Origin: Tridacna crocea
Taxonomy: Eukaryota > Mollusca > Bivalvia > Cardiida > Cardiidae
Length of the DNA: 64,000 bases
Direction of reading: 5' to 3'
Assembly: GCA_943736015.1 (NCBI GenBank)
Contig: OX031063.1
Coordinates: 3,453,001 to 3,517,000 of the forward strand
The translations under genes and the position numbers were made by a program. The notes under the pieces are model-generated. The model saw only the letters and a list, made by a program, of their open reading frames with translations, did no database searches and had not been told where the DNA came from. Numbering within the stretch: position 1 is the first letter of the stretch; each line of letters starts with the position of its first letter. Shown here in pieces: positions 21,476-64,000 of the stretch.

Positions 21476-21704
21476 TTAACCGTTTCCCAAACAATCCCTG
21501 CCTTTTACGGCTCTGGAATAGTAGCCTTTTGAAAACATTGTGGGAAAAGGAAAAAATGCTGGTAACCAGCATTTTCTCCTTTTCCCACAATGTTTTCTAC
21601 CCTATCATAGACAGAAATGATCTTTACAGCAAGAGTTGAATTGTCGTCTGCAAATGCTTTTAATTTGGTCTAGTCCAAAAATTTGTCGTGTGGGAAAGGG
21701 TTAA
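21476..21704 (+). mobile_element. MITE M1, CCCAA-type subfamily
   Basis: 229 bp, TTAACCGTTTCCCAAACAAT to TGTGGGAAAGGGTTAA, near-perfect core. It shares GGAATAGTAGCC and TCATAGACAGAAAT with the copy inside the tandem-array unit. Confidence 0.9.
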
Positions 21705-27819: not shown

Positions 27820-28154
27820 AAGTGTTGCTAAAGCCTTTAGCGGTTTGCTCAGTAAGTTTCAGTAGTTCGCGCGTTTGTTGCATAAATATTTGAAAAGAGG
27901 TAAATAAAAGATGTAGATTTAATTCAGCCTGTGCGTTTTTCTTTCAATCGTCTTATGCTGCATTTTATTCCATTTCTATTTAAACTGACCTGAAAAAAAA
28001 AAAAAGGGCTAGAGAACTGCATTGATTTCTTCTCTAAATACATGTAGTCTACCTGGGTGAAATGATCGAACAAATGCACGAAAACTTGCATACATGTATA
28101 ACAAAAACATTACGTAGAGTTTTCATTATTTATGAATAAAACAAGAAAAAGAGT

Positions 28155-28234
28155 GGGCCGTTTCGGTTTTGGGCCGTTTCGGTTTTGGGCCGTTCTGGAA
28201 GTGGGCCGTTTTGGGAGTGGGCCGTTTTGACCCC
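28155..28234 (+). repeat. 16-bp minisatellite, five units
   Basis: Unit GGGCCGTTTCGGTTTT, five copies in exact 16-bp phase; the last three diverge in their second half (GGGCCGTTTTGGGAGT). It is markedly more GC-rich than its surroundings and lies about 300 bp before the tandem array. The gap 28235-28529 holds nothing I can identify. Confidence 0.9.
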
Positions 28235-28664
28235 AATTCTTGTTAACAGAGAGACAGCTTTTTTCGAACTAGCAATGAATTCGAAATGGCCATGGTCAAA
28301 ATTAGAAATAATAGAGATAGATAAGTTTTTAATCCAATTCTAATTAGAAGAGAATTTACTAGACACATAAATTGTGCAAGATAGGGATCTCTACCGTTCC
28401 TTCTTCCTTCAACAAGTTTGAGCCAAAATACGAAACGGAGGTGAAGACTTTGGCAGCAGGTGTCACACCACTATAAAGTAAAATCGACTACATTGAAGCG
28501 TCCTAGAGGGCGTAATCGCAAGCCTTTTTTTCAAGCGCCCTTGCAAGAGTTACTTCCCTTGAAATAAACCCTTGATGCCCCTTTATCCCTTAATTAGATT
28601 TCCTGACTCAGACCACATTAAATTCTGCGCATTGAATAAGCCAAAATGATCAATGTACAGTGTA

Positions 28665-29595
28665 AAAACCCCAGAAATTAATGTGACAAGTGGCTAAAAA
28701 AGGACTGAATACTCTTTCAGTAGCAATTGATTCCCATTGCACGAATCAAACAAAGGGAATTGAAGTGTAATTTTTCTAATCTCTTCAAACCGCAACAAGA
28801 AACCCAGTTACGTCGACTGCCGTTTCATACGTGCCAGTTACGCACATGCCAAAACACCAGGAAATAATGTGACAAGTGGCTAAAAAAAGACTGAAGACTC
28901 TTTCAGTAGCAACTGCTTCCTGTTGCATAAGTCAAACAAAGAGAACTAAATTTCTAATATATTTTTTCTCTCCAATCTCTTTATACTGTGACGACATATA
29001 CCCATTTACGTAGACTACCGTCTCTCGTAGGTGCCACTTACGTATCCTCGAAAACATGAAAAATTGACCTACGGAACATTTCCTAGCAGACGACACATGT
29101 TTCTTAAGTCAAATATAGGGAACTAAATTTCTGATTTTTTTTTTCTCCATTGTCTTTATACCATGACAACAAACCCATTTATGTTGACTACCGTCTCATA
29201 GGTGCCAGTTACGTATCCGCGAAAACATGAAAAATGGACTTTTGGAACATTTTGTAGCAGACGACACCTGTCGTTTAAGTCAATCATAGGGATTTTTCTT
29301 TTTCGTTTTCTCTCACTAGGGCCATCGATTTGGTTACGATGACTATCTCACCCATACGTGATGGTTGCGTGCTACGCATAAAATCGTAAAATCAACTTAG
29401 ACACTTTCGGAGGCAACTGAAACCTGTTGCACAAATCAAAAAAAAAGGTAAACCGAATGCTTCCCTGTTTTCTTACCAGGGTCAATTTTGGTGACCTTGC
29501 GAGTCAAAAGTCAATGTTATGTTTAACTGCTGCGCAAAAATATAAAATTCAGAAGCAACCGGTTGCTGTTGCGGAAACTTTTTCCGGTTAAAAAA
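28665..29595 (+). repeat. Diverged internal subrepeats a-f of the unit
   Basis: Starts at about 28665 (a), 28851 (b), 29051 (c), 29222 (d), 29380 (e) and 29536 (f, partial), so lengths run about 186, 200, 171, 158 and 156 bp. Shared words in order: AAAACAYnAGAAAT-like start, TTTCAGTAGCAACTG or GTAGCAGACGACA, AAGTCAAA-ATAGGGAACT, a TTTTTTCTCTCC run, CCCATTTACGT-GACTACCG, GTGCCAGTTACGTATCC. Subrepeats c and d are the most alike; a, e and f are the most diverged. An old ~170-bp tandem repeat therefore lies inside the young 1.9-kb repeat. Confidence 0.8.
28723..29572. repeat. Six 18-nt motifs, mostly dyads, one per subrepeat
   Basis: 28723 GCAATTGATTCCCATTGC; 28909 GCAACTGCTTCCTGTTGC; 29086 GCAGACGACACATGTTTC; 29257 GCAGACGACACCTGTCGT; 29413 GCAACTGAAACCTGTTGC; 29555 GCAACCGGTTGCTGTTGC. 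All are 18 nt. Four have 5-bp complementary ends around 8 nt, with one compensated pair (GCAAT/ATTGC against GCAAC/GTTGC). The fourth has an alternative ACGACA/TGTCGT pairing. Only the third has no perfect stem. Confidence 0.7.
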
Positions 29596-29679
29596 AATCT
29601 TGAACTAGTTTGAAGAATTTAAAAATAGGCCATAAAGATACAATAAGATGTAAGAATAACTAGTAATCATTTTTGTCTT

Positions 29680-29815
29680 TGATAGGATTGAAAACATTGT
29701 GGGAAAAGGAGAAAATGCTGGTAACCTGCATTGTCTCCTTTTCTCAGATTTTTTTCAAAAGCTTTCTCTTTCGGGGGTGTTAAAAGGCGTCATTGTGTGG
29801 TAAAAGGTTAACAAG
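29680..29815 (-). mobile_element. Degenerate MITE M1 inside the array unit
   Basis: ATTGAAAACATTGTGGGAAA, then the damaged centre GCTGGTAACCTGCATTGTC and the right end CATTGTGTGGTAAAAGGTTAA. It recurs in every complete unit; unit 4 has a private T-to-C change in ACATTGTG at about 35475. Confidence 0.75.
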
Positions 29816-29837
29816 TATAAACAGAACCCCCCCCCCT

Positions 29838-30280
29838 TTACCAATCAGCCAATCAAATCCTATCCCTCTGTGAAATTATCCAATCACAGAAGCTTTAACC
29901 CTTTCCCAAACAAGCCCTGGTTTTTAAGGGTCTGGAATAGTAGCCTTTTGAAAACATTGTGGGAAAAGGAGAAAATGCTGGCTAACCAGCATTTTCTCCT
30001 TTTCCCACAATGTTTTCTAGCCTATCATAGACAGAAATTATCTTTTCAGCAAGAGTTGAATTGTCGTCTGCAAATGCTTCCAATTTAGTCTAGTCCAAAA
30101 GTTTGTCGTTTGGGAAAGGGTTAAGGAAATCAGCATGGGGCCCAGTCAGCCAATCAGAGGCTTCGAGAAATTCAAAACTGGGCCCAGTCAGCCAATCAGA
30201 GGCTTCGAGATATTCAAAGTTGGGCCCAGTCAGCCAATCAGAGAGCTTGAAAATTACTTCAAAATGGCGCCCTAATATAT
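29838..30280 (+). promoter_or_regulatory. Promoter-like block of the array unit: five CCAAT boxes, ATGGCG, TATA-like
   Basis: CAGCCAATCAAA (about 29845) and ATCCAATCACAG (about 29878) precede the MITE. After it, AGTCAGCCAATCAGAG occurs three times (about 30147, 30189, 30231) within a 42-bp triplication beginning GGGCCCAGTCAGCC. AAAATGGCGCCC (30262) resembles a YY1-type site and CTAATATATAG (30272) a TATA-like stretch; GCATAAAAGTG follows at about 30307. RRCCAAT is the NF-Y consensus. The arrangement is promoter-like on the plus strand, but no product is recognised. Confidence 0.45.
29895..30124 (+). mobile_element. Intact MITE M1 (CCCAA-type) inside the array unit
   Basis: 230 bp, TTAACCCTTTCCCAAACAAG to TCGTTTGGGAAAGGGTTAA. 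The core palindrome is perfect (GCTGGCTAACCAGC centre, with a CTA insertion-like loop). It recurs in all 18 complete units, giving 18 identical long hairpins. It belongs to the same subfamily as the copies at 11511 and 21476. Confidence 0.9.
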
Positions 30281-33200
30281 AGATAGAAAACAGTGAACAA
30301 AAAACGGCATAAAAGTGGATTTACAGTCTTCTTTGAAGGCTGCTGTGCAGTCCTAGGCAAACTGCTAGGCATGCACCACCCACACATGCCAGATTTCACT
30401 GAAAAAGGGCCAAAATTTAAGAAATCAGGGTGGCAGAAGACCTTGTTTTGGTCTGTTCAAGCGCCCTTGCAAGAGTTACTTCCCTTGAAATAAACCCTTG
30501 ATGCCCCTTTATCCCTTAATTAGATTTCCTGACTCAGACCACATTAAATTCTGCGCATTGAATAAGCCAAAATGATCAATGTACAGTGTAAAAACCCCAG
30601 AAATTAATGTGACAAGTGGCTAAAAAAGGACTGAATACTCTTTCAGTAGCAATTGATTCCCATTGCACGAATCAAACAAAGGGAATTGAAGTGTAATTTT
30701 TCTAATCTCTTCAAACCGCAACAAGAAACCCAGTTACGTCGACTGCCGTTTCATACGTGCCAGTTACGCACATGCCAAAACACCAGGAAATAATGTGACA
30801 AGTGGCTAAAAAAAGACTGAAGACTCTTTCAGTAGCAACTGCTTCCTGTTGCATAAGTCAAACAAAGAGAACTAAATTTCTAATATATTTTTTCTCTCCA
30901 ATCTCTTTATACTGTGACGACATATACCCATTTACGTAGACTACCGTCTCTCGTAGGTGCCACTTACGTATCCTCGAAAACATGAAAAATTGACCTACGG
31001 AACATTTCCTAGCAGACGACACATGTTTCTTAAGTCAAATATAGGGAACTAAATTTCTGATTTTTTTTTTCTCCATTGTCTTTATACCATGACAACAAAC
31101 CCATTTATGTTGACTACCGTCTCATAGGTGCCAGTTACGTATCCGCGAAAACATGAAAAATGGACTTTTGGAACATTTTGTAGCAGACGACACCTGTCGT
31201 TTAAGTCAATCATAGGGATTTTTCTTTTTCGTTTTCTCTCACTAGGGCCATCGATTTGGTTACGATGACTATCTCACCCATACGTGATGGTTGCGTGCTA
31301 CGCATAAAATCGTAAAATCAACTTAGACACTTTCGGAGGCAACTGAAACCTGTTGCACAAATCAAAAAAAAAGGTAAACCGAATGCTTCCCTGTTTTCTT
31401 ACCAGGGTCAATTTTGGTGACCTTGCGAGTCAAAAGTCAATGTTATGTTTAACTGCTGCGCAAAAATATAAAATTCAGAAGCAACCGGTTGCTGTTGCGG
31501 AAACTTTTTCCGGTTAAAAAAAATCTTGAACTAGTTTGAAGAATTTAAAAATAGGCCATAAAGATACAATAAGATGTAAGAATAACTAGTAATCATTTTT
31601 GTCTTTGATAGGATTGAAAACATTGTGGGAAAAGGAGAAAATGCTGGTAACCTGCATTGTCTCCTTTTCTCAGATTTTTTTCAAAAGCTTTCTCTTTCGG
31701 GGGTGTTAAAAGGCGTCATTGTGTGGTAAAAGGTTAACAAGTATAAACAGAACCCCCCCCCCTTTACCAATCAGCCAATCAAATCCTATCCCTCTGTGAA
31801 ATTATCCAATCACAGAAGCTTTAACCCTTTCCCAAACAAGCCCTGGTTTTTAAGGGTCTGGAATAGTAGCCTTTTGAAAACATTGTGGGAAAAGGAGAAA
31901 ATGCTGGCTAACCAGCATTTTCTCCTTTTCCCACAATGTTTTCTAGCCTATCATAGACAGAAATTATCTTTTCAGCAAGAGTTGAATTGTCGTCTGCAAA
32001 TGCTTCCAATTTAGTCTAGTCCAAAAGTTTGTCGTTTGGGAAAGGGTTAAGGAAATCAGCATGGGGCCCAGTCAGCCAATCAGAGGCTTCGAGAAATTCA
32101 AAACTGGGCCCAGTCAGCCAATCAGAGGCTTCGAGATATTCAAAGTTGGGCCCAGTCAGCCAATCAGAGAGCTTGAAAATTACTTCAAAATGGCGCCCTA
32201 ATATATAGATAGAAAACAGTGAACAAAAAACGGCATAAAAGTGGATTTACAGTCTTCTTTGAAGGCTGCTGTGCAGTCCTAGGCAAACTGCTAGGCATGC
32301 ACCACCCACACATGCCAGATTTCACTGAAAAAGGGCCAAAATTTAAGAAATCAGGGTGGCAGAAGACCTTGTTTTGGTCTGTTCAAGCGCCCTTGCAAGA
32401 GTTACTTCCCTTGAAATAAACCCTTGATGCCCCTTTATCCCTTAATTAGATTTCCTGACTCAGACCACATTAAATTCTGCGCATTGAATAAGCCAAAATG
32501 ATCAATGTACAGTGTAAAAACCCCAGAAATTAATGTGACAAGTGGCTAAAAAAGGACTGAATACTCTTTCAGTAGCAATTGATTCCCATTGCACGAATCA
32601 AACAAAGGGAATTGAAGTGTAATTTTTCTAATCTCTTCAAACCGCAACAAGAAACCCAGTTACGTCGACTGCCGTTTCATACGTGCCAGTTACGCACATG
32701 CCAAAACACCAGGAAATAATGTGACAAGTGGCTAAAAAAAGACTGAAGACTCTTTCAGTAGCAACTGCTTCCTGTTGCATAAGTCAAACAAAGAGAACTA
32801 AATTTCTAATATATTTTTTCTCTCCAATCTCTTTATACTGTGACGACATATACCCATTTACGTAGACTACCGTCTCTCGTAGGTGCCACTTACGTATCCT
32901 CGAAAACATGAAAAATTGACCTACGGAACATTTCCTAGCAGACGACACATGTTTCTTAAGTCAAATATAGGGAACTAAATTTCTGATTTTTTTTTTCTCC
33001 ATTGTCTTTATACCATGACAACAAACCCATTTATGTTGACTACCGTCTCATAGGTGCCAGTTACGTATCCGCGAAAACATGAAAAATGGACTTTTGGAAC
33101 ATTTTGTAGCAGACGACACCTGTCGTTTAAGTCAATCATAGGGATTTTTCTTTTTCGTTTTCTCTCACTAGGGCCATCGATTTGGTTACGATGACTATCT

Positions 33201-34307
33201 CACCCATACGTGATGGTTGCGTGCTACGCATAAAATCGTAAAATCAACTTAGACACTTTCGGAGGCAACTGAAACCTGTTGCACAAATCAAAAAAAAAGG
33301 TAAACCGAATGCTTCCCTGTTTTCTTACCAGGGTCAATTTTGGTGACCTTGCGAGTCAAAAGTCAATGTTATGTTTAACTGCTGCGCAAAAATATAAAAT
33401 TCAGAAGCAACCGGTTGCTGTTGCGGAAACTTTTTCCGGTTAAAAAAAATCTTGAACTAGTTTGAAGAATTTAAAAATAGGCCATAAAGATACAATAAGA
33501 TGTAAGAATAACTAGTAATCATTTTTGTCTTTGATAGGATTGAAAACATTGTGGGAAAAGGAGAAAATGCTGGTAACCTGCATTGTCTCCTTTTCTCAGA
33601 TTTTTTTCAAAAGCTTTCTCTTTCGGGGGTGTTAAAAGGCGTCATTGTGTGGTAAAAGGTTAACAAGTATAAACAGAACCCCCCCCCCTTTACCAATCAG
33701 CCAATCAAATCCTATCCCTCTGTGAAATTATCCAATCACAGAAGCTTTAACCCTTTCCCAAACAAGCCCTGGTTTTTAAGGGTCTGGAATAGTAGCCTTT
33801 TGAAAACATTGTGGGAAAAGGAGAAAATGCTGGCTAACCAGCATTTTCTCCTTTTCCCACAATGTTTTCTAGCCTATCATAGACAGAAATTATCTTTTCA
33901 GCAAGAGTTGAATTGTCGTCTGCAAATGCTTCCAATTTAGTCTAGTCCAAAAGTTTGTCGTTTGGGAAAGGGTTAAGGAAATCAGCATGGGGCCCAGTCA
34001 GCCAATCAGAGGCTTCGAGAAATTCAAAACTGGGCCCAGTCAGCCAATCAGAGGCTTCGAGATATTCAAAGTTGGGCCCAGTCAGCCAATCAGAGAGCTT
34101 GAAAATTACTTCAAAATGGCGCCCTAATATATAGATAGAAAACAGTGAACAAAAAACGGCATAAAAGTGGATTTACAGTCTTCTTTGAAGGCTGCTGTGC
34201 AGTCCTAGGCAAACTGCTAGGCATGCACCACCCACACATGCCAGATTTCACTGAAAAAGGGCCAAAATTTAAGAAATCAGGGTGGCAGAAGACCTTGTTT
34301 TGGTCTG

Positions 34308-37300
34308 TTCAAGCGCCCTTGCAAGAGTTACTTCCCTTGAAATAAACCCTTGATGCCCCTTTATCCCTTAATTAGATTTCCTGACTCAGACCACATTAAA
34401 TTCTGCGCATTGAATAAGCCAAAATGATCAATGTACAGTGTAAAAACCCCAGAAATTAATGTGACAAGTGGCTAAAAAAGGACTGAATACTCTTTCAGTA
34501 GCAATTGATTCCCATTGCACGAATCAAACAAAGGGAATTGAAGTGTAATTTTTCTAATCTCTTCAAACCGCAACAAGAAACCCAGTTACGTCGACTGCCG
34601 TTTCATACGTGCCAGTTACGCACATGCCAAAACACCAGGAAATAATGTGACAAGTGGCTAAAAAAAGACTGAAGACTCTTTCAGTAGCAACTGCTTCCTG
34701 TTGCATAAGTCAAACAAAGAGAACTAAATTTCTAATATATTTTTTCTCTCCAATCTCTTTATACTGTGACGACATATACCCATTTACGTAGACTACCGTC
34801 TCTCGTAGGTGCCACTTACGTATCCTCGAAAACATGAAAAATTGACCTACGGAACATTTCCTAGCAGACGACACATGTTTCTTAAGTCAAATATAGGGAA
34901 CTAAATTTCTGATTTTTTTTTTCTCCATTGTCTTTATACCATGACAACAAACCCATTTATGTTGACTACCGTCTCATAGGTGCCAGTTACGTATCCGCGA
35001 AAACATGAAAAATGGACTTTTGGAACATTTTGTAGCAGACGACACCTGTCGTTTAAGTCAATCATAGGGATTTTTCTTTTTCGTTTTCTCTCACTAGGGC
35101 CATCGATTTGGTTACGATGACTATCTCACCCATACGTGATGGTTGCGTGCTACGCATAAAATCGTAAAATCAACTTAGACACTTTCGGAGGCAACTGAAA
35201 CCTGTTGCACAAATAAAAAAAAAAGGTAAACCGAATGCTTCCCTGTTTTCTTACCAGGGTCAATTTTGGTGACCTTGCGAGTCAAAAGTCAATGTTATGT
35301 TTAACTGCTGCGCAAAAATATAAAATTCAGAAGCAACCGGTTGCTGTTGCGGAAACTTTTTCCGGTTAAAAAAAATCTTGAACTAGTTTGAAGAATTTAA
35401 AAATAGGCCATAAAGATACAATAAGATGTAAGAATAACTAGTAATCATTTTTGTCTTTGATAGGATTGAAAACACTGTGGGAAAAGGAGAAAATGCTGGT
35501 AACCTGCATTGTCTCCTTTTCTCAGATTTTTTTCAAAAGCTTTCTCTTTCGGGGGTGTTAAAAGGCGTCATTGTGTGGTAAAAGGTTAACAAGTATAAAC
35601 AGAACCCCCCCCCCCTTTACCAATCAGCCAATCAAATCCTATCCCTCTGTGAAATTATCCAATCACAGAAGCTTTAACCCTTTCCCAAACAAGCCCTGGT
35701 TTTTAAGGGTCTGGAATAGTAGCCTTTTGAAAACATTGTGGGAAAAGGAGAAAATGCTGGCTAACCAGCATTTTCTCCTTTTCCCACAATGTTTTCTAGC
35801 CTATCATAGACAGAAATTATCTTTTCAGCAAGAGTTGAATTGTCGTCTGCAAATGCTTCCAATTTAGTCTAGTCCAAAAGTTTGTCGTTTGGGAAAGGGT
35901 TAAGGAAATCAGCATGGGGCCCAGTCAGCCAATCAGAGGCTTCGAGAAATTCAAAACTGGGCCCAGTCAGCCAATCAGAGGCTTCGAGATATTCAAAGTT
36001 GGGCCCAGTCAGCCAATCAGAGAGCTTGAAAATTACTTCAAAATGGCGCCCTAATATATAGATAGAAAACAGTGAACAAAAAACGGCATAAAAGTGGATT
36101 TACAGTCTTCTTTGAAGGCTGCTGTGCAGTCCTAGGCAAACTGCTAGGCATGCACCACCCACACATGCCAGATTTCACTGAAAAAGGGCCAAAATTTAAG
36201 AAATCAGGGTGGCAGAAGACCTTGTTTTGGTCTGTTCAAGCGCCCTTGCAAGAGTTACTTCCCTTGAAATAAACCCTTGATGCCCCTTTATCCCTTAATT
36301 AGATTTCCTGACTCAGACCACATTAAATTCTGCGCATTGAATAAGCCAAAATGATCAATGTACAGTGTAAAAACCCCAGAAATTAATGTGACAAGTGGCT
36401 AAAAAAGGACTGAATACTCTTTCAGTAGCAATTGATTCCCATTGCACGAATCAAACAAAGGGAATTGAAGTGTAATTTTTCTAATCTCTTCAAACCGCAA
36501 CAAGAAACCCAGTTACGTCGACTGCCGTTTCATACGTGCCAGTTACGCACATGCCAAAACACCAGGAAATAATGTGACAAGTGGCTAAAAAAAGACTGAA
36601 GACTCTTTCAGTAGCAACTGCTTCCTGTTGCATAAGTCAAACAAAGAGAACTAAATTTCTAATATATTTTTTCTCTCCAATCTCTTTATACTGTGACGAC
36701 ATATACCCATTTACGTAGACTACCGTCTCTCGTAGGTGCCACTTACGTATCCTCGAAAACATGAAAAATTGACCTACGGAACATTTCCTAGCAGACGACA
36801 CATGTTTCTTAAGTCAAATATAGGGAACTAAATTTCTGATTTTTTTTTTCTCCATTGTCTTTATACCATGACAACAAACCCATTTATGTTGACTACCGTC
36901 TCATAGGTGCCAGTTACGTATCCGCGAAAACATGAAAAATGGACTTTTGGAACATTTTGTAGCAGACGACACCTGTCGTTTAAGTCAATCATAGGGATTT
37001 TTCTTTTTCGTTTTCTCTCACTAGGGCCATCGATTTGGTTACGATGACTATCTCACCCATACGTGATGGTTGCGTGCTACGCATAAAATCGTAAAATCAA
37101 CTTAGACACTTTCGGAGGCAACTGAAACCTGTTGCACAAATAAAAAAAAAAGGTAAACCGAATGCTTCCCTGTTTTCTTACCAGGGTCAATTTTGGTGAC
37201 CTTGCGAGTCAAAAGTCAATGTTATGTTTAACTGCTGCGCAAAAATATAAAATTCAGAAGCAACCGGTTGCTGTTGCGGAAACTTTTTCCGGTTAAAAAA

Positions 37301-38159
37301 AATCTTGAACTAGTTTGAAGAATTTAAAAATAGGCCATAAAGATACAATAAGATGTAAGAATAACTAGTAATCATTTTTGTCTTTGATAGGATTGAAAAC
37401 ATTGTGGGAAAAGGAGAAAATGCTGGTAACCTGCATTGTCTCCTTTTCTCAGATTTTTTTCAAAAGCTTTCTCTTTCGGGGGTGTTAAAAGGCGTCATTG
37501 TGTGGTAAAAGGTTAACAAGTATAAACAGAACCCCCCCCCTTTACCAATCAGCCAATCAAATCCTATCCCTCTGTGAAATTATCCAATCACAGAAGCTTT
37601 AACCCTTTCCCAAACAAGCCCTGGTTTTTAAGGGTCTGGAATAGTAGCCTTTTGAAAACATTGTGGGAAAAGGAGAAAATGCTGGCTAACCAGCATTTTC
37701 TCCTTTTCCCACAATGTTTTCTAGCCTATCATAGACAGAAATTATCTTTTCAGCAAGAGTTGAATTGTCGTCTGCAAATGCTTCCAATTTAGTCTAGTCC
37801 AAAAGTTTGTCGTTTGGGAAAGGGTTAAGGAAATCAGCATGGGGCCCAGTCAGCCAATCAGAGGCTTCGAGAAATTCAAAACTGGGCCCAGTCAGCCAAT
37901 CAGAGGCTTCGAGATATTCAAAGTTGGGCCCAGTCAGCCAATCAGAGAGCTTGAAAATTACTTCAAAATGGCGCCCTAATATATAGATAGAAAACAGTGA
38001 ACAAAAAACGGCATAAAAGTGGATTTACAGTCTTCTTTGAAGGCTGCTGTGCAGTCCTAGGCAAACTGCTAGGCATGCACCACCCACACATGCCAGATTT
38101 CACTGAAAAAGGGCCAAAATTTAAGAAATCAGGGTGGCAGAAGACCTTGTTTTGGTCTG
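34308..38159 (+). repeat. Array units 4 and 5, sharing an A variant
   Basis: Both carry CACAAATAAAA (about 35210 and 37135) where units 1-3 and 6-9 have CACAAATCAAA. Unit 4 has 11 Cs in the C-tract, unit 5 has 9. The 11-C length lets a longer open frame run through the tract in units 4 and 16; this is a frame accident, not a gene. Confidence 0.85.
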
Positions 38160-51643: not shown

Positions 51644-54600
51644 TTCAAGCGCCCTTGCAAGAGTTACTTCCCTTGAAATAAACCCTTGATGCCCCTTTAT
51701 CCCTTAATTAGATTTCCTGACTCAGACCACATTAAATTCTGCGCATTGAATAAGCCAAAATGATCAATGTACAGTGTAAAAACCCCAGAAATTAATGTGA
51801 CAAGTGGCTAAAAAAGGACTGAATACTCTTTCAGTAGCAATTGATTCCCATTGCACGAATCAAACAAAGGGAATTGAAGTGTAATTTTTCTAATCTCTTC
51901 AAACCGCAACAAGAAACCCAGTTACGTCGACTGCCGTTTCATACGTGCCAGTTACGCACATGCCAAAACACCAGGAAATAATGTGACAAGTGGCTAAAAA
52001 AAGACTGAAGACTCTTTCAGTAGCAACTGCTTCCTGTTGCATAAGTCAAACAAAGAGAACTAAATTTCTAATATATTTTTTCTCTCCAATCTCTTTATAC
52101 TGTGACGACATATACCCATTTACGTAGACTACCGTCTCTCGTAGGTGCCACTTACGTATCCTCGAAAACATGAAAAATTGACCTACGGAACATTTCCTAG
52201 CAGACGACACATGTTTCTTAAGTCAAATATAGGGAACTAAATTTCTGATTTTTTTTTTCTCCATTGTCTTTATACCATGACAACAAACCCATTTATGTTG
52301 ACTACCGTCTCATAGGTGCCAGTTACGTATCCGCGAAAACATGAAAAATGGACTTTTGGAACATTTTGTAGCAGACGACACCTGTCGTTTAAGTCAATCA
52401 TAGGGATTTTTCTTTTTCGTTTTCTCTCACTAGGGCCATCGATTTGGTTACGATGACTATCTCACCCATACGTGATGGTTGCGTGCTACGCATAAAATCG
52501 TAAAATCAACTTAGACACTTTCGGAGGCAACTGAAACCTGTTGCACAAATCAAAAAAAAAGGTAAACCGAATGCTTCCCTGTTTTCTTACCAGGGTCAAT
52601 TTTGGTGACCTTGCGAGTCAAAAGTCAATGTTATGTTTAACTGCTGCGCAAAAATATAAAATTCAGAAGCAACCGGTTGCTGTTGCGGAAACTTTTTCCG
52701 GTTAAAAAAAATCTTGAACTAGTTTGAAGAATTTAAAAATAGGCCATAAAGATACAATAAGATGTAAGAATAACTAGTAATCATTTTTGTCTTTGATAGG
52801 ATTGAAAACATTGTGGGAAAAGGAGAAAATGCTGGTAACCTGCATTGTCTCCTTTTCTCAGATTTTTTTCAAAAGCTTTCTCTTTCGGGGGTGTTAAAAG
52901 GCGTCATTGTGTGGTAAAAGGTTAACAAGTATAAACAGAACCCCCCCCCCTTTACCAATCAGCCAATCAAATCCTATCCCTCTGTGAAATTATCCAATCA
53001 CAGAAGCTTTAACCCTTTCCCAAACAAGCCCTGGTTTTTAAGGGTCTGGAATAGTAGCCTTTTGAAAACATTGTGGGAAAAGGAGAAAATGCTGGCTAAC
53101 CAGCATTTTCTCCTTTTCCCACAATGTTTTCTAGCCTATCATAGACAGAAATTATCTTTTCAGCAAGAGTTGAATTGTCGTCTGCAAATGCTTCCAATTT
53201 AGTCTAGTCCAAAAGTTTGTCGTTTGGGAAAGGGTTAAGGAAATCAGCATGGGGCCCAGTCAGCCAATCAGAGGCTTCGAGAAATTCAAAACTGGGCCCA
53301 GTCAGCCAATCAGAGGCTTCGAGATATTCAAAGTTGGGCCCAGTCAGCCAATCAGAGAGCTTGAAAATTACTTCAAAATGGCGCCCTAATATATAGATAG
53401 AAAACAGTGAACAAAAAACGGCATAAAAGTGGATTTACAGTCTTCTTTGAAGGCTGCTGTGCAGTCCTAGGCAAACTGCTAGGCATGCACCACCCACACA
53501 TGCCAGATTTCACTGAAAAAGGGCCAAAATTTAAGAAATCAGGGTGGCAGAAGACCTTGTTTTGGTCTGTTCAAGCGCCCTTGCAAGAGTTACTTCCCTT
53601 GAAATAAACCCTTGATGCCCCTTTATCCCTTAATTAGATTTCCTGACTCAGACCACATTAAATTCTGCGCATTGAATAAGCCAAAATGATCAATGTACAG
53701 TGTAAAAACCCCAGAAATTAATGTGACAAGTGGCTAAAAAAGGACTGAATACTCTTTCAGTAGCAATTGATTCCCATTGCACGAATCAAACAAAGGGAAT
53801 TGAAGTGTAATTTTTCTAATCTCTTCAAACCGCAACAAGAAACCCAGTTACGTCGACTGCCGTTTCATACGTGCCAGTTACGCACATGCCAAAACACCAG
53901 GAAATAATGTGACAAGTGGCTAAAAAAAGACTGAAGACTCTTTCAGTAGCAACTGCTTCCTGTTGCATAAGTCAAACAAAGAGAACTAAATTTCTAATAT
54001 ATTTTTTCTCTCCAATCTCTTTATACTGTGACGACATATACCCATTTACGTAGACTACCGTCTCTCGTAGGTGCCACTTACGTATCCTCGAAAACATGAA
54101 AAATTGACCTACGGAACATTTCCTAGCAGACGACACATGTTTCTTAAGTCAAATATAGGGAACTAAATTTCTGATTTTTTTTTTCTCCATTGTCTTTATA
54201 CCATGACAACAAACCCATTTATGTTGACTACCGTCTCATAGGTGCCAGTTACGTATCCGCGAAAACATGAAAAATGGACTTTTGGAACATTTTGTAGCAG
54301 ACGACACCTGTCGTTTAAGTCAATCATAGGGATTTTTCTTTTTCGTTTTCTCTCACTAGGGCCATCGATTTGGTTACGATGACTATCTCACCCATACGTG
54401 ATGGTTGCGTGCTACGCATAAAATCGTAAAATCAACTTAGACACTTTCGGAGGCAACTGAAACCTGTTGCACAAATCAAAAAAAAAGGTAAACCGAATGC
54501 TTCCCTGTTTTCTTACCAGGGTCAATTTTGGTGACCTTGCGAGTCAAAAGTCAATGTTATGTTTAACTGCTGCGCAAAAATATAAAATTCAGAAGCAACC

Positions 54601-57600
54601 GGTTGCTGTTGCGGAAACTTTTTCCGGTTAAAAAAAATCTTGAACTAGTTTGAAGAATTTAAAAATAGGCCATAAAGATACAATAAGATGTAAGAATAAC
54701 TAGTAATCATTTTTGTCTTTGATAGGATTGAAAACATTGTGGGAAAAGGAGAAAATGCTGGTAACCTGCATTGTCTCCTTTTCTCAGATTTTTTTCAAAA
54801 GCTTTCTCTTTCGGGGGTGTTAAAAGGCGTCATTGTGTGGTAAAAGGTTAACAAGTATAAACAGAACCCCCCCCCCTTTACCAATCAGCCAATCAAATCC
54901 TATCCCTCTGTGAAATTATCCAATCACAGAAGCTTTAACCCTTTCCCAAACAAGCCCTGGTTTTTAAGGGTCTGGAATAGTAGCCTTTTGAAAACATTGT
55001 GGGAAAAGGAGAAAATGCTGGCTAACCAGCATTTTCTCCTTTTCCCACAATGTTTTCTAGCCTATCATAGACAGAAATTATCTTTTCAGCAAGAGTTGAA
55101 TTGTCGTCTGCAAATGCTTCCAATTTAGTCTAGTCCAAAAGTTTGTCGTTTGGGAAAGGGTTAAGGAAATCAGCATGGGGCCCAGTCAGCCAATCAGAGG
55201 CTTCGAGAAATTCAAAACTGGGCCCAGTCAGCCAATCAGAGGCTTCGAGATATTCAAAGTTGGGCCCAGTCAGCCAATCAGAGAGCTTGAAAATTACTTC
55301 AAAATGGCGCCCTAATATATAGATAGAAAACAGTGAACAAAAAACGGCATAAAAGTGGATTTACAGTCTTCTTTGAAGGCTGCTGTGCAGTCCTAGGCAA
55401 ACTGCTAGGCATGCACCACCCACACATGCCAGATTTCACTGAAAAAGGGCCAAAATTTAAGAAATCAGGGTGGCAGAAGACCTTGTTTTGGTCTGTTCAA
55501 GCGCCCTTGCAAGAGTTACTTCCCTTGAAATAAACCCTTGATGCCCCTTTATCCCTTAATTAGATTTCCTGACTCAGACCACATTAAATTCTGCGCATTG
55601 AATAAGCCAAAATGATCAATGTACAGTGTAAAAACCCCAGAAATTAATGTGACAAGTGGCTAAAAAAGGACTGAATACTCTTTCAGTAGCAATTGATTCC
55701 CATTGCACGAATCAAACAAAGGGAATTGAAGTGTAATTTTTCTAATCTCTTCAAACCGCAACAAGAAACCCAGTTACGTCGACTGCCGTTTCATACGTGC
55801 CAGTTACGCACATGCCAAAACACCAGGAAATAATGTGACAAGTGGCTAAAAAAAGACTGAAGACTCTTTCAGTAGCAACTGCTTCCTGTTGCATAAGTCA
55901 AACAAAGAGAACTAAATTTCTAATATATTTTTTCTCTCCAATCTCTTTATACTGTGACGACATATACCCATTTACGTAGACTACCGTCTCTCGTAGGTGC
56001 CACTTACGTATCCTCGAAAACATGAAAAATTGACCTACGGAACATTTCCTAGCAGACGACACATGTTTCTTAAGTCAAATATAGGGAACTAAATTTCTGA
56101 TTTTTTTTTTCTCCATTGTCTTTATACCATGACAACAAACCCATTTATGTTGACTACCGTCTCATAGGTGCCAGTTACGTATCCGCGAAAACATGAAAAA
56201 TGGACTTTTGGAACATTTTGTAGCAGACGACACCTGTCGTTTAAGTCAATCATAGGGATTTTTCTTTTTCGTTTTCTCTCACTAGGGCCATCGATTTGGT
56301 TACGATGACTATCTCACCCATACGTGATGGTTGCGTGCTACGCATAAAATCGTAAAATCAACTTAGACACTTTCGGAGGCAACTGAAACCTGTTGCACAA
56401 ATCAAAAAAAAAGGTAAACCGAATGCTTCCCTGTTTTCTTACCAGGGTCAATTTTGGTGACCTTGCGAGTCAAAAGTCAATGTTATGTTTAACTGCTGCG
56501 CAAAAATATAAAATTCAGAAGCAACCGGTTGCTGTTGCGGAAACTTTTTCCGGTTAAAAAAAATCTTGAACTAGTTTGAAGAATTTAAAAATAGGCCATA
56601 AAGATACAATAAGATGTAAGAATAACTAGTAATCATTTTTGTCTTTGATAGGATTGAAAACATTGTGGGAAAAGGAGAAAATGCTGGTAACCTGCATTGT
56701 CTCCTTTTCTCAGATTTTTTTCAAAAGCTTTCTCTTTCGGGGGTGTTAAAAGGCGTCATTGTGTGGTAAAAGGTTAACAAGTATAAACAGAACCCCCCCC
56801 CCTTTACCAATCAGCCAATCAAATCCTATCCCTCTGTGAAATTATCCAATCACAGAAGCTTTAACCCTTTCCCAAACAAGCCCTGGTTTTTAAGGGTCTG
56901 GAATAGTAGCCTTTTGAAAACATTGTGGGAAAAGGAGAAAATGCTGGCTAACCAGCATTTTCTCCTTTTCCCACAATGTTTTCTAGCCTATCATAGACAG
57001 AAATTATCTTTTCAGCAAGAGTTGAATTGTCGTCTGCAAATGCTTCCAATTTAGTCTAGTCCAAAAGTTTGTCGTTTGGGAAAGGGTTAAGGAAATCAGC
57101 ATGGGGCCCAGTCAGCCAATCAGAGGCTTCGAGAAATTCAAAACTGGGCCCAGTCAGCCAATCAGAGGCTTCGAGATATTCAAAGTTGGGCCCAGTCAGC
57201 CAATCAGAGAGCTTGAAAATTACTTCAAAATGGCGCCCTAATATATAGATAGAAAACAGTGAACAAAAAACGGCATAAAAGTGGATTTACAGTCTTCTTT
57301 GAAGGCTGCTGTGCAGTCCTAGGCAAACTGCTAGGCATGCACCACCCACACATGCCAGATTTCACTGAAAAAGGGCCAAAATTTAAGAAATCAGGGTGGC
57401 AGAAGACCTTGTTTTGGTCTGTTCAAGCGCCCTTGCAAGAGTTACTTCCCTTGAAATAAACCCTTGATGCCCCTTTATCCCTTAATTAGATTTCCTGACT
57501 CAGACCACATTAAATTCTGCGCATTGAATAAGCCAAAATGATCAATGTACAGTGTAAAAACCCCAGAAATTAATGTGACAAGTGGCTAAAAAAGGACTGA

Positions 57601-60600
57601 ATACTCTTTCAGTAGCAATTGATTCCCATTGCACGAATCAAACAAAGGGAATTGAAGTGTAATTTTTCTAATCTCTTCAAACCGCAACAAGAAACCCAGT
57701 TACGTCGACTGCCGTTTCATACGTGCCAGTTACGCACATGCCAAAACACCAGGAAATAATGTGACAAGTGGCTAAAAAAAGACTGAAGACTCTTTCAGTA
57801 GCAACTGCTTCCTGTTGCATAAGTCAAACAAAGAGAACTAAATTTCTAATATATTTTTTCTCTCCAATCTCTTTATACTGTGACGACATATACCCATTTA
57901 CGTAGACTACCGTCTCTCGTAGGTGCCACTTACGTATCCTCGAAAACATGAAAAATTGACCTACGGAACATTTCCTAGCAGACGACACATGTTTCTTAAG
58001 TCAAATATAGGGAACTAAATTTCTGATTTTTTTTTTCTCCATTGTCTTTATACCATGACAACAAACCCATTTATGTTGACTACCGTCTCATAGGTGCCAG
58101 TTACGTATCCGCGAAAACATGAAAAATGGACTTTTGGAACATTTTGTAGCAGACGACACCTGTCGTTTAAGTCAATCATAGGGATTTTTCTTTTTCGTTT
58201 TCTCTCACTAGGGCCATCGATTTGGTTACGATGACTATCTCACCCATACGTGATGGTTGCGTGCTACGCATAAAATCGTAAAATCAACTTAGACACTTTC
58301 GGAGGCAACTGAAACCTGTTGCACAAATCAAAAAAAAAGGTAAACCGAATGCTTCCCTGTTTTCTTACCAGGGTCAATTTTGGTGACCTTGCGAGTCAAA
58401 AGTCAATGTTATGTTTAACTGCTGCGCAAAAATATAAAATTCAGAAGCAACCGGTTGCTGTTGCGGAAACTTTTTCCGGTTAAAAAAAATCTTGAACTAG
58501 TTTGAAGAATTTAAAAATAGGCCATAAAGATACAATAAGATGTAAGAATAACTAGTAATCATTTTTGTCTTTGATAGGATTGAAAACATTGTGGGAAAAG
58601 GAGAAAATGCTGGTAACCTGCATTGTCTCCTTTTCTCAGATTTTTTTCAAAAGCTTTCTCTTTCGGGGGTGTTAAAAGGCGTCATTGTGTGGTAAAAGGT
58701 TAACAAGTATAAACAGAACCCCCCCCCCCTTTACCAATCAGCCAATCAAATCCTATCCCTCTGTGAAATTATCCAATCACAGAAGCTTTAACCCTTTCCC
58801 AAACAAGCCCTGGTTTTTAAGGGTCTGGAATAGTAGCCTTTTGAAAACATTGTGGGAAAAGGAGAAAATGCTGGCTAACCAGCATTTTCTCCTTTTCCCA
58901 CAATGTTTTCTAGCCTATCATAGACAGAAATTATCTTTTCAGCAAGAGTTGAATTGTCGTCTGCAAATGCTTCCAATTTAGTCTAGTCCAAAAGTTTGTC
59001 GTTTGGGAAAGGGTTAAGGAAATCAGCATGGGGCCCAGTCAGCCAATCAGAGGCTTCGAGAAATTCAAAACTGGGCCCAGTCAGCCAATCAGAGGCTTCG
59101 AGATATTCAAAGTTGGGCCCAGTCAGCCAATCAGAGAGCTTGAAAATTACTTCAAAATGGCGCCCTAATATATAGATAGAAAACAGTGAACAAAAAACGG
59201 CATAAAAGTGGATTTACAGTCTTCTTTGAAGGCTGCTGTGCAGTCCTAGGCAAACTGCTAGGCATGCACCACCCACACATGCCAGATTTCACTGAAAAAG
59301 GGCCAAAATTTAAGAAATCAGGGTGGCAGAAGACCTTGTTTTGGTCTGTTCAAGCGCCCTTGCAAGAGTTACTTCCCTTGAAATAAACCCTTGATGCCCC
59401 TTTATCCCTTAATTAGATTTCCTGACTCAGACCACATTAAATTCTGCGCATTGAATAAGCCAAAATGATCAATGTACAGTGTAAAAACCCCAGAAATTAA
59501 TGTGACAAGTGGCTAAAAAAGGACTGAATACTCTTTCAGTAGCAATTGATTCCCATTGCACGAATCAAACAAAGGGAATTGAAGTGTAATTTTTCTAATC
59601 TCTTCAAACCGCAACAAGAAACCCAGTTACGTCGACTGCCGTTTCATACGTGCCAGTTACGCACATGCCAAAACACCAGGAAATAATGTGACAAGTGGCT
59701 AAAAAAAGACTGAAGACTCTTTCAGTAGCAACTGCTTCCTGTTGCATAAGTCAAACAAAGAGAACTAAATTTCTAATATATTTTTTCTCTCCAATCTCTT
59801 TATACTGTGACGACATATACCCATTTACGTAGACTACCGTCTCTCGTAGGTGCCACTTACGTATCCTCGAAAACATGAAAAATTGACCTACGGAACATTT
59901 CCTAGCAGACGACACATGTTTCTTAAGTCAAATATAGGGAACTAAATTTCTGATTTTTTTTTTCTCCATTGTCTTTATACCATGACAACAAACCCATTTA
60001 TGTTGACTACCGTCTCATAGGTGCCAGTTACGTATCCGCGAAAACATGAAAAATGGACTTTTGGAACATTTTGTAGCAGACGACACCTGTCGTTTAAGTC
60101 AATCATAGGGATTTTTCTTTTTCGTTTTCTCTCACTAGGGCCATCGATTTGGTTACGATGACTATCTCACCCATACGTGATGGTTACGTGCTACGCATAA
60201 AATCGTAAAATCAACTTAGACACTTTCGGAGGCAACTGAAACCTGTTGCACAAATCAAAAAAAAAGGTAAACCGAATGCTTCCCTGTTTTCTTACCAGGG
60301 TCAATTTTGGTGACCTTGCGAGTCAAAAGTCAATGTTATGTTTAACTGCTGCGCAAAAATATAAAATTCAGAAGCAACCGGTTGCTGTTGCGGAAACTTT
60401 TTCCGGTTAAAAAAAATCTTGAACTAGTTTGAAGAATTTAAAAATAGGCCATAAAGATACAATAAGATGTAAGAATAACTAGTAATCATTTTTGTCTTTG
60501 ATAGGATTGAAAACATTGTGGGAAAAGGAGAAAATGCTGGTAACCTGCATTGTCTCCTTTTCTCAGATTTTTTTCAAAAGCTTTCTCTTTCGGGGGTGTT

Positions 60601-63198
60601 AAAAGGCGTCATTGTGTGGTAAAAGGTTAACAAGTATAAACAGAACCCCCCCCCTTTACCAATCAGCCAATCAAATCCTATCCCTCTGTGAAATTATCCA
60701 ATCACAGAAGCTTTAACCCTTTCCCAAACAAGCCCTGGTTTTTAAGGGTCTGGAATAGTAGCCTTTTGAAAACATTGTGGGAAAAGGAGAAAATGCTGGC
60801 TAACCAGCATTTTCTCCTTTTCCCACAATGTTTTCTAGCCTATCATAGACAGAAATTATCTTTTCAGCAAGAGTTGAATTGTCGTCTGCAAATGCTTCCA
60901 ATTTAGTCTAGTCCAAAAGTTTGTCGTTTGGGAAAGGGTTAAGGAAATCAGCATGGGGCCCAGTCAGCCAATCAGAGGCTTCGAGAAATTCAAAACTGGG
61001 CCCAGTCAGCCAATCAGAGGCTTCGAGATATTCAAAGTTGGGCCCAGTCAGCCAATCAGAGAGCTTGAAAATTACTTCAAAATGGCGCCCTAATATATAG
61101 ATAGAAAACAGTGAACAAAAAACGGCATAAAAGTGGATTTACAGTCTTCTTTGAAGGCTGCTGTGCAGTCCTAGGCAAACTGCTAGGCATGCACCACCCA
61201 CACATGCCAGATTTCACTGAAAAAGGGCCAAAATTTAAGAAATCAGGGTGGCAGAAGACCTTGTTTTGGTCTGTTCAAGCGCCCTTGCAAGAGTTACTTC
61301 CCTTGAAATAAACCCTTGATGCCCCTTTATCCCTTAATTAGATTTCCTGACTCAGACCACATTAAATTCTGCGCATTGAATAAGCCAAAATGGTCAATGT
61401 ACAGTGTAAAAACCCCAGAAATTAATGTGACAAGTGGCTAAAAAAGGACTGAATACTCTTTCAGTAGCAATTGATTCCCATTGCACGAATCAAACAAAGG
61501 GAATTGAAGTGTAATTTTTCTAATCTCTTCAAACCGCAACAAGAAACCCAGTTACGTCGACTGCCGTTTCATACGTGCCAGTTACGCACATGCCAAAACA
61601 CCAGGAAATAATGTGACAAGTGGCTAAAAAAAGACTGAAGACTCTTTCAGTAGCAACTGCTTCCTGTTGCATAAGTCAAACAAAGAGAACTAAATTTCTA
61701 ATATATTTTTTCTCTCCAATCTCTTTATACTGTGACGACATATACCCATTTACGTAGACTACCGTCTCTCGTAGGTGCCACTTACGTATCCTCGAAAACA
61801 TGAAAAATTGACCTACGGAACATTTCCTAGCAGACGACACATGTTTCTTAAGTCAAATATAGGGAACTAAATTTCTGATTTTTTTTTTCTCCATTGTCTT
61901 TATACCATGACAACAAACCCATTTATGTTGACTACCGTCTCATAGGTGCCAGTTACGTATCCGCGAAAACATGAAAAATGGACTTTTGGAACATTTTGTA
62001 GCAGACGACACCTGTCGTTTAAGTCAATCATAGGGATTTTTCTTTTTCGTTTTCTCTCACTAGGGCCATCGATTTGGTTACGATGACTATCTCACCCATA
62101 CGTGATGGTTGCGTGCTACGCATAAAATCGTAAAATCAACTTAGACACTTTCGGAGGCAACTGAAACCTGTTGCACAAATCAAAAAAAAAGGTAAACCGA
62201 ATGCTTCCCTGTTTTCTTACCAGGGTCAATTTTGGTGACCTTGCGAGTCAAAAGTCAATGTTATGTTTAACTGCTGCGCAAAAATATAAAATTCAGAAGC
62301 AACCGGTTGCTGTTGCGGAAACTTTTTCCGGTTAAAAAAAATCTTGAACTAGTTTGAAGAATTTAAAAATAGGCCATAAAGATACAATAAGATGTAAGAA
62401 TAACTAGTAATCATTTTTGTCTTTGATAGGATTGAAAACATTGTGGGAAAAGGAGAAAATGCTGGTAACCTGCATTGTCTCCTTTTCTCAGATTTTTTTC
62501 AAAAGCTTTCTCTTTCGGGGGTGTTAAAAGGCGTCATTGTGTGGTAAAAGGTTAACAAGTATAAACAGAACCCCCCCCCTTTACCAATCAGCCAATCAAA
62601 TCCTATCCCTCTGTGAAATTATCCAATCACAGAAGCTTTAACCCTTTCCCAAACAAGCCCTGGTTTTTAAGGGTCTGGAATAGTAGCCTTTTGAAAACAT
62701 TGTGGGAAAAGGAGAAAATGCTGGCTAACCAGCATTTTCTCCTTTTCCCACAATGTTTTCTAGCCTATCATAGACAGAAATTATCTTTTCAGCAAGAGTT
62801 GAATTGTCGTCTGCAAATGCTTCCAATTTAGTCTAGTCCAAAAGTTTGTCGTTTGGGAAAGGGTTAAGGAAATCAGCATGGGGCCCAGTCAGCCAATCAG
62901 AGGCTTCGAGAAATTCAAAACTGGGCCCAGTCAGCCAATCAGAGGCTTCGAGATATTCAAAGTTGGGCCCAGTCAGCCAATCAGAGAGCTTGAAAATTAC
63001 TTCAAAATGGCGCCCTAATATATAGATAGAAAACAGTGAACAAAAAACGGCATAAAAGTGGATTTACAGTCTTCTTTGAAGGCTGCTGTGCAGTCCTAGG
63101 CAAACTGCTAGGCATGCACCACCCACACATGCCAGATTTCACTGAAAAAGGGCCAAAATTTAAGAAATCAGGGTGGCAGAAGACCTTGTTTTGGTCTG

Positions 63199-64000
63199 TT
63201 CAAGCGCCCTTGCAAGAGTTACTTCCCTTGAAATAAACCCTTGATGCCCCTTTATCCCTTAATTAGATTTCCTGACTCAGACCACATTAAATTCTGCGCA
63301 TTGAATAAGCCAAAATGATCAATGTACAGTGTAAAAACCCCAGAAATTAATGTGACAAGTGGCTAAAAAAGGACTGAATACTCTTTCAGTAGCAATTGAT
63401 TCCCATTGCACGAATCAAACAAAGGGAATTGAAGTGTAATTTTTCTAATCTCTTCAAACCGCAACAAGAAACCCAGTTACGTCGACTGCCATTTCATACG
63501 TGCCAGTTACGCACATGCCAAAACACCAGGAAATAATGTGACAAGTGGCTAAAAAAAGACTGAAGACTCTTTCAGTAGCAACTGCTTCCTGTTGCATAAG
63601 TCAAACAAAGAGAACTAAATTTCTAATATATTTTTTCTCTCCAATCTCTTTATACTGTGACGACATATACCCATTTACGTAGACTACCGTCTCTCGTAGG
63701 TGCCACTTACGTATCCTCGAAAACATGAAAAATTGACCTACGGAACATTTCCTAGCAGACGACACATGTTTCTTAAGTCAAATATAGGGAACTAAATTTC
63801 TGATTTTTTTTTTCTCCATTGTCTTTATACCATGACAACAAACCCATTTATGTTGACTACCGTCTCATAGGTGCCAGTTACGTATCCGCGAAAACATGAA
63901 AAATGGACTTTTGGAACATTTTGTAGCAGACGACACCTGTCGTTTAAGTCAATCATAGGGATTTTTCTTTTTCGTTTTCTCTCACTAGGGCCATCGATTT
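63199..64000 (+). repeat. Array unit 19, cut by the window edge
   Basis: 802 bp, reaching into subrepeat d. It has a private G-to-A change at 63491 (CTGCCATTTC). The array therefore continues to the right by an unknown amount. Confidence 0.9.

Follow-up and report, generated by a model that had tools for sequence, protein, structure and literature searches.

The best-known higher-order satellite arrays are those of primates, in which alpha satellite consists of diverged monomers of ~170 bp organized in higher-order units; the units of one array are near-identical as neighbours but differ from those of other arrays. To our knowledge, few such arrays have been assembled outside primates. In bivalves, Cg170/BIV160 and the Helentron-derived Cg_HINE contain a handful of ~160-180-bp monomers within a longer, transposable element-like sequence that is widely dispersed (PMC5139131, PMC7492417, PMC7348941). 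The centre of oyster HINEs is made of satellite-like monomers of 160-180 bp, up to about five per element on average, with a palindrome beyond the last of them; the elements insert at TT and produce no target duplication (PMC7492417, PMC5139131). The monomer arrays of Cg170/HINE are mostly short, with two to three monomers in 56% (PMC7492417). Satellites derived from transposable elements are also described, namely the tandem truncated Helitrons found at plant centromeres (PMC7348941).

The 64-kb stretch of DNA analysed here (the window) contains the left part of a tandem array that resembles the bivalve systems in combining a handful of monomers of similar length with longer, transposable element-like sequence, in its wide dispersal and in having a palindrome close to where the monomer block ends. 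It differs from Cg170/Cg_HINE, with their short arrays in dispersed elements, in that the block of monomers plus linker is itself repeated in tandem to form arrays that reach 100-400 kb. Like the tandem truncated Helitrons of plants, it represents transposable element-like sequence amplified in tandem, but no convincing Helitron ends were found here. With primate alpha satellite it shares diverged monomers of about 170 bp, higher-order units, array-wise homogeneity and graded age layers; it is distinguished from it by a long non-monomeric linker with MITEs and by several arrays or matches per contig, and no sequence kinship is claimed. The 1,926-bp unit of the window is the form taken, in a single array, by a composite repeat made of ~155-185-bp monomers, and it is probable that the whole family is a composite, higher-order-like satellite DNA enlarged by local amplification and homogenised array by array.

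The window array and the anatomy of its unit

The array begins at window position 28531/28537, where the left flank ends in a T-run, and is still ongoing at the window end. It includes 18 full units of 1,925-1,928 bp each (11 distinct sequences, eight units being mutually identical) and a remainder of 795 bp, with only 10 variable alignment columns in the window, nine among the full units and one in the cut 19th unit only. Self-identity at a lag of 1,926 is 1.0 where register-shifting indels are absent and ~0.23-0.30 in the left flank; at one fixed lag it is 0.70 over the full stretch because the period wobbles by 1-3 bases. Followed beyond the window, the array consists of 70 full contiguous units up to position 3,617,000 of contig C8, and array sequence was found in all five samples taken from 3.65-3.85 Mb. 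Overall, it spans C8:3,481,531 to about 3,896,697, that is roughly 415 kb and an estimated ~210 copies, with coverage of the 3,617-3,854 kb interval through samples and pattern places only. A single ~9.8-kb insertion splits the array, and the units resume after it. Thus, the homogeneous array of a 1,926-bp unit put forward in the original prediction is confirmed and is larger than claimed, extending well past the window. The array lies 3.5 Mb from the start of the 60.8-Mb C8 contig, on which other matches are found at 15-30 Mb.

The features of the left end are as follows (window coordinates), the monomer positions in unit 1 deriving from an HMM grown from the units:

28531..64000, + strand: left part of the array, starting at C8:3,481,531; 18 full units and 795 bp
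28531..28537, no strand: left junction, T-rich unique flank abutting the unit, decayed edge copy absent
28537..30462, + strand: unit 1, the 1,926-bp reference
28684..28835, + strand: monomer 1 (HMM)
28869..29035, + strand: monomer 2 (HMM)
29050..29206, + strand: monomer 3 (HMM)
29218..29350, + strand: monomer 4 (HMM)
29375..29483, + strand: monomer 5, partial match (HMM)
29555..29566, no strand: palindrome GCAACCGGTTGC, ~70 bp past the last monomer match, within a 24-bp run invariant across six units
29691..29727, no strand: 37-bp run invariant across six units, belonging to a MITE-like foldback common to all six
29899..30122, no strand: 224-bp MITE with inverted ends CCCTTTCCCAAAC/GTTTGGGAAAGGG and TTAA on each side
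30138..30255, + strand: 42-bp x 2.8 repeat with three CCAAT-box-like CAGCCAATCAGA words
30264..30271, + strand: ATGGCGCC word, present in five of the six units compared and missing from that of C1
63206..64000, + strand: unit 19, truncated by the window end and going on in the adjoining sequence L001

Each of the six units sampled from different arrays (~1.6-2.5 kb) is made of 5-6 diverged monomers of ~155-185 bp and a linker of ~0.8-1.4 kb, so that all six contain a single basic monomer in repeated, diverged form. The monomers inside unit 1 are 75-83% alike over aligned letters, gaps excluded. The ATGGCGCC word is presumably YY1-like, a putative assignment by resemblance.

The presence of MITEs inside the unit, also anticipated, is borne out by the 224-bp insert. 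It is flanked by duplicated TTAA target sites and its inverted ends begin with CCC, from which we take it to be of the piggyBac type. Across the 70 contiguous units both of its junctions were counted 70 times, the other five sampled subtypes all have an empty TTAA site at the corresponding position, and three relatives, adjoining TTAA, are found in the left flank. The MITE junction occurs at 408 places in the genome, about twice the copy number of the window array, and therefore the MITE-bearing subtype is not exclusive to it, ruling out a private subtype.

As for gene content, Rfam searches (E<=1) of positions 28,000-34,500 yielded 24 weak matches, confined to the MITE foldback and far short of the gathering scores, in agreement with the earlier view that the unit is not a known RNA gene. 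No tRNA was detected in the window, and among the open frames of the unit the three longest had no Pfam family over cut-off, the only match being Omp85 (E 0.0099, below its cut-off). Taken over these scopes, the results speak against an RNA or histone gene repeat.

The satellite family across the genome

With up to three mismatches allowed, two words taken from the unit had 14,745 and 17,660 genomic matches, with none for the reversed-pattern controls, so that the window array is one member of a large family spread over the genome of this animal, probably a bivalve. Among the matches listed, C1-C18 are all represented, and multiple loci are found on C1, C2, C3, C4, C8 and others, for example at 3.5, 15.3, 17.4, 27.2 and 30.0 Mb of C8, where several arrays or matches share the contig. 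From the two word counts, at 1.6-2.1 kb per unit, the family was estimated to account for roughly 24-37 Mb, or 2.2-3.5% of the 1.05-Gb assembly, to be compared with the 1.76% given for Cg170 in the oyster genome (PMC7348941). Long head-to-tail arrays, a non-coding unit and many copies make this a satellite DNA. The exact core word had no matches in viral and prokaryote contigs, and none of the openly licensed papers listed in literature searches names this satellite family in its title or abstract opening.

The unit lengths in the six sampled arrays are 1,926, 2,104, 2,086, 1,610, 1,828 and ~2,460 bp, and further arrays have periods of ~1,605, ~1,666, ~1,690 and ~1,686. Identity between neighbouring units is >99% over most of the length of the window array, 99.8% for the array at 30 Mb of C8, 97.9-99.3% on C1, 99.6% on C2, 95.6-98.9% on C4 and 88.7-94.7% in the irregular sample from C3. 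Between arrays it is 74-95%, as measured for 15 pairs, each over its longest aligned piece. Units are thus far more alike within than between arrays, with the exception of those of C1 (33.1 Mb) and C8 (30.0 Mb), which are 95% identical over their full length, nearly matching the likeness of neighbours on C4. On this ground the units are array-specific at best and not chromosome-specific; C8 itself has at least three unit lengths.

In some features the unit recalls HINEs: it has 5-6 monomers (~155-185 bp each), its palindrome lies ~70 bp past the last monomer match, and the left junction is T-rich. It is possible, at modest odds, that the arrays derive from a rolling-circle transposon of the Helitron or Helentron/HINE type with satellite-like monomers at its centre, repeated head-to-tail when copying ran beyond the end of the element. 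In three of the five units tested for subterminal inverted repeats, namely those of C8 3.5 Mb, C2 and C4, the stretch ahead of the monomers shares the same inverted match of 11-13 bp with the last monomer (3-4 versus 0.2-1.25 in shuffles). However, this match is missing from the units of C1 and C8 30 Mb, and it sits within the last monomer, while in HINEs it comes after it. A hairpin followed by a CTRR end was absent from five of six units, with one match in C3, and none of the three stray places examined contained a complete solitary copy. Furthermore, four array or fragment edges fall at four different unit positions in a common numbering (~907 and ~145 for the left and right edges of the window array, ~809 and ~1426 for the left edges in L051 and L052). 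End searches, edge phases and inverted repeats give no clear support to a rolling-circle element with fixed ends, and the rolling-circle re-insertion envisaged at the outset draws no support from the edge positions or from the search for ends, which gave no convincing Helitron or Helentron termini.

Diversity along the window array

The near identity of neighbouring units, along with 27 matches on C1 at an exact spacing of 2,090 bp, could also be produced by an assembly artefact, through multiplication of a small number of true copies or a wrong join in the array. This is very improbable because within the contiguous part (135 kb) exact repeats extend to 6,684 bp at most. None of its 127,471 8-kb windows is duplicated, so that reads of ordinary HiFi length could place the units. 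Moreover, there is no N across 164 kb of joined sequence, shared and private variants are scattered along the array, and the family recurs on other contigs. The artefact raised in the original prediction is thus not supported as a serious alternative, every 8-kb window being unique in the contiguous part and like arrays being present on other contigs.

The mean pairwise difference rises about ninefold from the left edge, from 0.045% for units 1-10 to 0.416% for units 61-70. The gradient is not strictly monotonic, the sample at 3.75 Mb (L013) being nearer to unit 1 than that at 3.65 Mb (L011), and 600 bp at 3,875 kb still show 99.8% identity. At the right end identity to unit 1 is 96.8% at 3,895 kb, then 98.5% over the following 741 bp and, in the final piece, 93.5%. 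The claim of an undegraded edge copy stands for the left edge, while the right end is more diverged. With the least diversity at the left edge, the most recent amplification probably took place there, in line with the recent amplification that had been proposed.

The abrupt left junction and the undegraded, least diverse edge would also be explained if the left part were a recent multi-copy insertion of an extrachromosomal circle. This is unlikely, in that diversity climbs gradually over ~135 kb instead of stepwise and one subtype persists to the diverged right end.

Homogenisation, possible roles and CpG bias

By taking these data together in terms of a composite satellite amplified and homogenised locally, a basic monomer of ~155-185 bp would have been repeated 5-6 times, diverging, and the monomer block together with the ~0.8-1.4-kb non-monomeric linker and its accumulated MITEs would have become the amplified unit. 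The latter would have formed many separate arrays across the genome, each of which would have been homogenised independently, so that neighbours within an array are far more alike than units across arrays. The ancestor of the window array would have been a unit already carrying the TTAA-target MITE, with growth to ~210 copies by a local mechanism that may have been unequal exchange, replication-based copying or conversion, and with the latest growth at the left end. The unit DNA most likely acts as non-coding heterochromatin or pericentromere-type DNA.

Judged from sequence features, the family may be heterochromatin-like or centromere-like. That the arrays are the functional centromere satellite, binding the centromeric histone, with the conserved palindrome possibly serving as a protein-binding box, is conceivable and rather doubtful. 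Monomers of ~155-185 bp in higher-order units, long homogeneous arrays and places on C1-C18 (among the matches listed) would fit such a role, as would the example of the oyster, in which a satellite with monomers of similar length is centromeric on several chromosomes (PMC7348941). However, several scattered arrays or matches per contig, with the window array 3.5 Mb from the contig start and others at 15-30 Mb, do not look like one centromere each. A single centromere per contig was suggested by one locus per contig among 100 matches listed, and was weakened by further searches that returned multiple loci.

A broader proposal, which we regard as improbable, is that an alpha-satellite-like system evolved in a mollusc or other lophotrochozoan independently of primates, with ~155-185-bp monomers in higher-order units, independently homogenised, age-layered and CpG-methylated arrays on every chromosome that would act as centromere or heterochromatin seeds, and the near-invariant palindrome GCAACCGGTTGC as a putative CENP-B-box-like binding site. 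Being assembled, and combining a MITE marker with variants private to single units and an age gradient, the arrays lend themselves to direct tests of array birth, homogenisation and movement, and of whether they mark centromeres in an animal group with poorly known centromere DNA.

The variation itself carries a signature. Variable sites make up 20 of 90 CpG bases and 23 of 663 other C/G bases (p = 5e-9), an approximately sixfold excess as expected for methylated DNA, pointing to CpG methylation as the likely cause of the bias; 19 of the 20 CpG changes are C>T or G>A.

Extent and integrity of the array

The satellite runs head to tail from window position 28531 through the window end, and the original prediction of a homogeneous array of ~1,926-bp units was borne out: cutting at an anchor word yields 18 complete units, each 1,925–1,928 bp long, plus a final piece of 795 bp. 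Eleven distinct sequences are found among the full units, 8 of which are mutually identical. Ten columns are variable, of which one differs solely in the truncated unit 19. The fixed-lag identity over the whole stretch is only 0.70 because single-base indels shift the register. The array continues uninterrupted through the next 100 kb (L001–L010), and the joined 164 kb, without any N, contains 70 full-length matches to unit 1 (the reference unit, window 28537..30462).

The window occupies C8:3,453,001–3,517,000 of the assembly (G000), which comprises 1.049 Gb in 31 contigs. Further along contig C8, the array was present in all five 4-kb samples taken at 3.65, 3.70, 3.75, 3.80 and 3.85 Mb. The 12 samples between 3.90 and 7.0 Mb were without any match longer than 250 bp to it, short MITE-type matches being present in 10 (absent in L018 and L025). 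The contig-end sample also gave no array match, and that at the contig start (C8:1-4000, L028) consists of 4,000 N, either a gap or sequence that was withheld. The following interruption was detected:

G000:C8:~3,858,007–3,867,794: ~9.8-kb insertion inside the array, described from its ends (in L035 and L048)

The insertion has direct terminal repeats of 378 bp, 99.7% alike, and from its ends appears retroelement-like. To its right the array resumes up to an edge at ~C8:3,896,697, as placed from samples and edges, and the units near this end are rearranged, with two internal jumps. The copy number is estimated at ~210, from ~415 kb minus the insertion, with 3,617–3,854 kb only sampled. An exact 51-base unit word has 184 genome matches, 181 of them forward and 3 reverse, and all places among the matches listed (at least 100 of the 184) fall in this array.

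The alternative initially considered, namely that the array is an assembly artefact, is unlikely: the contiguous array contains zero duplicated 8-kb windows and its longest exact repeat is 6,684 bp, so that each unit could be assigned its position with HiFi reads of usual length.

Diversity gradient and CpG changes

Of the 1,926 columns, 84 are variable across the first 70 units, and the mean pairwise difference in successive ten-unit blocks is 0.045, 0.068, 0.120, 0.136, 0.217, 0.193 and 0.416%. Identity to unit 1 is 98.5% at 3,885 kb, 98.3% at 3,890 kb and 96.8% at 3,895 kb, then 98.5% in the piece that follows and 93.5% in the terminal one. Thus, the least diverse part of the array adjoins unique DNA on the left and the most diverged part lies at the right. 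The gradient is not strictly monotonic: the 3.75 Mb sample (L013) is nearer to unit 1 than that at 3.65 Mb (L011), and a 600-bp stretch at 3,875 kb is 99.8% identical to it.

Variation is seen at 20 of 90 CpG bases versus 23 of 663 other C/G bases (odds ratio 8, p = 5e-9). Of the 20 CpG-base changes counted, C>T and G>A make up 19. Germ-line methylation of the array would be expected to leave such a pattern, and is what we infer from it.

A genome-wide family with a common anatomy

A second array, with a unit of 2,104 bp about 82–83% alike to the window unit, was found in a 4-kb sample at C8:30.0 Mb. A 35-base core word common to both units matches 14,745 genome places (<=3 mismatches; reversed-word control, none), and a second unit word matches 17,660 (control, 0). 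The CpG C>T form of the core word is common (1,558 places) and the G>A form is found at 74; for two non-CpG positions, variant forms are rare, with 6 and 11 places. Place lists are complete only for the three variant or related searches with 6, 74 and 11 places. Among the matches listed, unit words reach every contig from C1 to C18 and, with their variants, none beyond. Arrays would also be inferred on contigs such as C6, C7, C10, C12 and C13, with at least one to two places among the matches listed.

Periods of the series read or listed
C1: ~2,090 and ~1,666 bp
C2: ~1,610 and ~1,686 bp
C4: ~1,827 and ~1,690 bp
C8: ~1,605, 1,926 and 2,104 bp

At C1:33,051,916-33,106,256, 27 successive word matches lie exactly 2,090 bp apart with zero length changes, a series more regular than the window array; such spacing would reflect either very recent expansion or an artefact of assembly. 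At C1:6.33 Mb, an unrelated duplicated repeat carries in one of its copies an ~86-bp satellite-monomer fragment (L050 2131-2216), 96.5% identical to the C4 unit, which the neighbouring copy lacks.

The comparison covered six units, that of the window subtype (C8 3.5 Mb) and those of C8 30 Mb, C1, C2, C3 and C4. An HMM built up from a single seed monomer places 5 or 6 tandem monomers, spaced ~155–185 bp, in each of them, the remainder being a linker of about 0.8–1.4 kb. The linker starts with a palindrome, which in unit 1 lies ~70 bp past the last monomer match. In unit 1 the five monomers (28684–29483) show 75–83% identity over aligned letters, gaps being excluded. Between arrays, the 15 pairwise comparisons give 74–95% identity over the longest piece that aligns, the 95% pair being the C1 and C8 30 Mb units, over their full length.

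Identity of neighbouring units within arrays
C8 30 Mb: 99.8%
C1, three pieces: 98.3, 99.3 and 97.9%
C2: 99.6%
C4, two pieces: 98.9 and 95.6%
C3, in parts: 88.7–94.7%

Eight runs of at least 15 bases are identical across all six units. One, of 24 bases, contains the palindrome GCAACCGGTTGC, and the others include a CCAAT-type word and a stretch of a MITE-like foldback. Such runs do not prove constraint, the subtypes being so few.

The MITE, a possible origin of the units, and neighbouring features

The predicted MITE in the unit was confirmed, with both junctions found 70 times in 70 contiguous units.

29899–30122: MITE of the window subtype, 224 bp, TTAA on both sides
21478-21704: relative in the left flank, 93%, adjoining TTAA
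11513-11739: relative in the left flank, 92%, adjoining TTAA
8794-9020: relative in the left flank, 79%, adjoining TTAA

Many further partial MITE matches are present in the left flank. All five other subtypes compared have an empty TTAA site, so the MITE serves as a putative founder marker of the window subtype; on C2, a closer relative (L052, about 90%) also lacks the MITE stretch, but shows no clean empty site. The MITE-unit junction is found at 408 genome places (<=3 mismatches; 301 forward, 107 reverse), therefore one or more other arrays also carry MITE-bearing units. Local amplification and homogenisation inside each array would account for the graded diversity, the MITE in common and the differences between arrays.

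In bivalves, Helentron-type HINE elements carrying satellite-like 160–180-bp monomers (PMC7492417), networks of satellites and Helitrons (PMC5139131) and the oyster Cg170 repeat, at several centromeres and also dispersed (PMC7348941), have been described. The anatomy of the present units resembles this HINE/Cg170 model, which, as outlined in these sources, is a close one. The satellite may have come from a HINE/Helentron-type element and is not claimed to be one, because the anatomy is similar, but four array or fragment edges fall at four different unit positions and the tests for HINE/Helitron ends gave no clear result.

Other features were noted in the window:

2912-5410, + strand: 832-aa open frame
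9431-10129 and 19519-20195: a ~165-bp repeat forming two short arrays, their orientations seemingly opposite
28152-28227: 16-bp x 4.8 repeat (AGTGGGCCGTTTCGGT), ~300 bp outside the left edge of the array

The open frame is perhaps a large exon; its sole Pfam match is sub-threshold, and no PDB relative was found at E 0.01. Sequence similar-looking, as judged by eye, to the ~165-bp repeat arrays also lies just past the right edge of the satellite array (L049). Elsewhere in the assembly, the 29,009-bp contig C31 has a full-length cox1 match with three in-frame TGA codons, which together with the satellite matches on 18 contigs would suit a bivalve, and is apparently a long mitochondrial genome.
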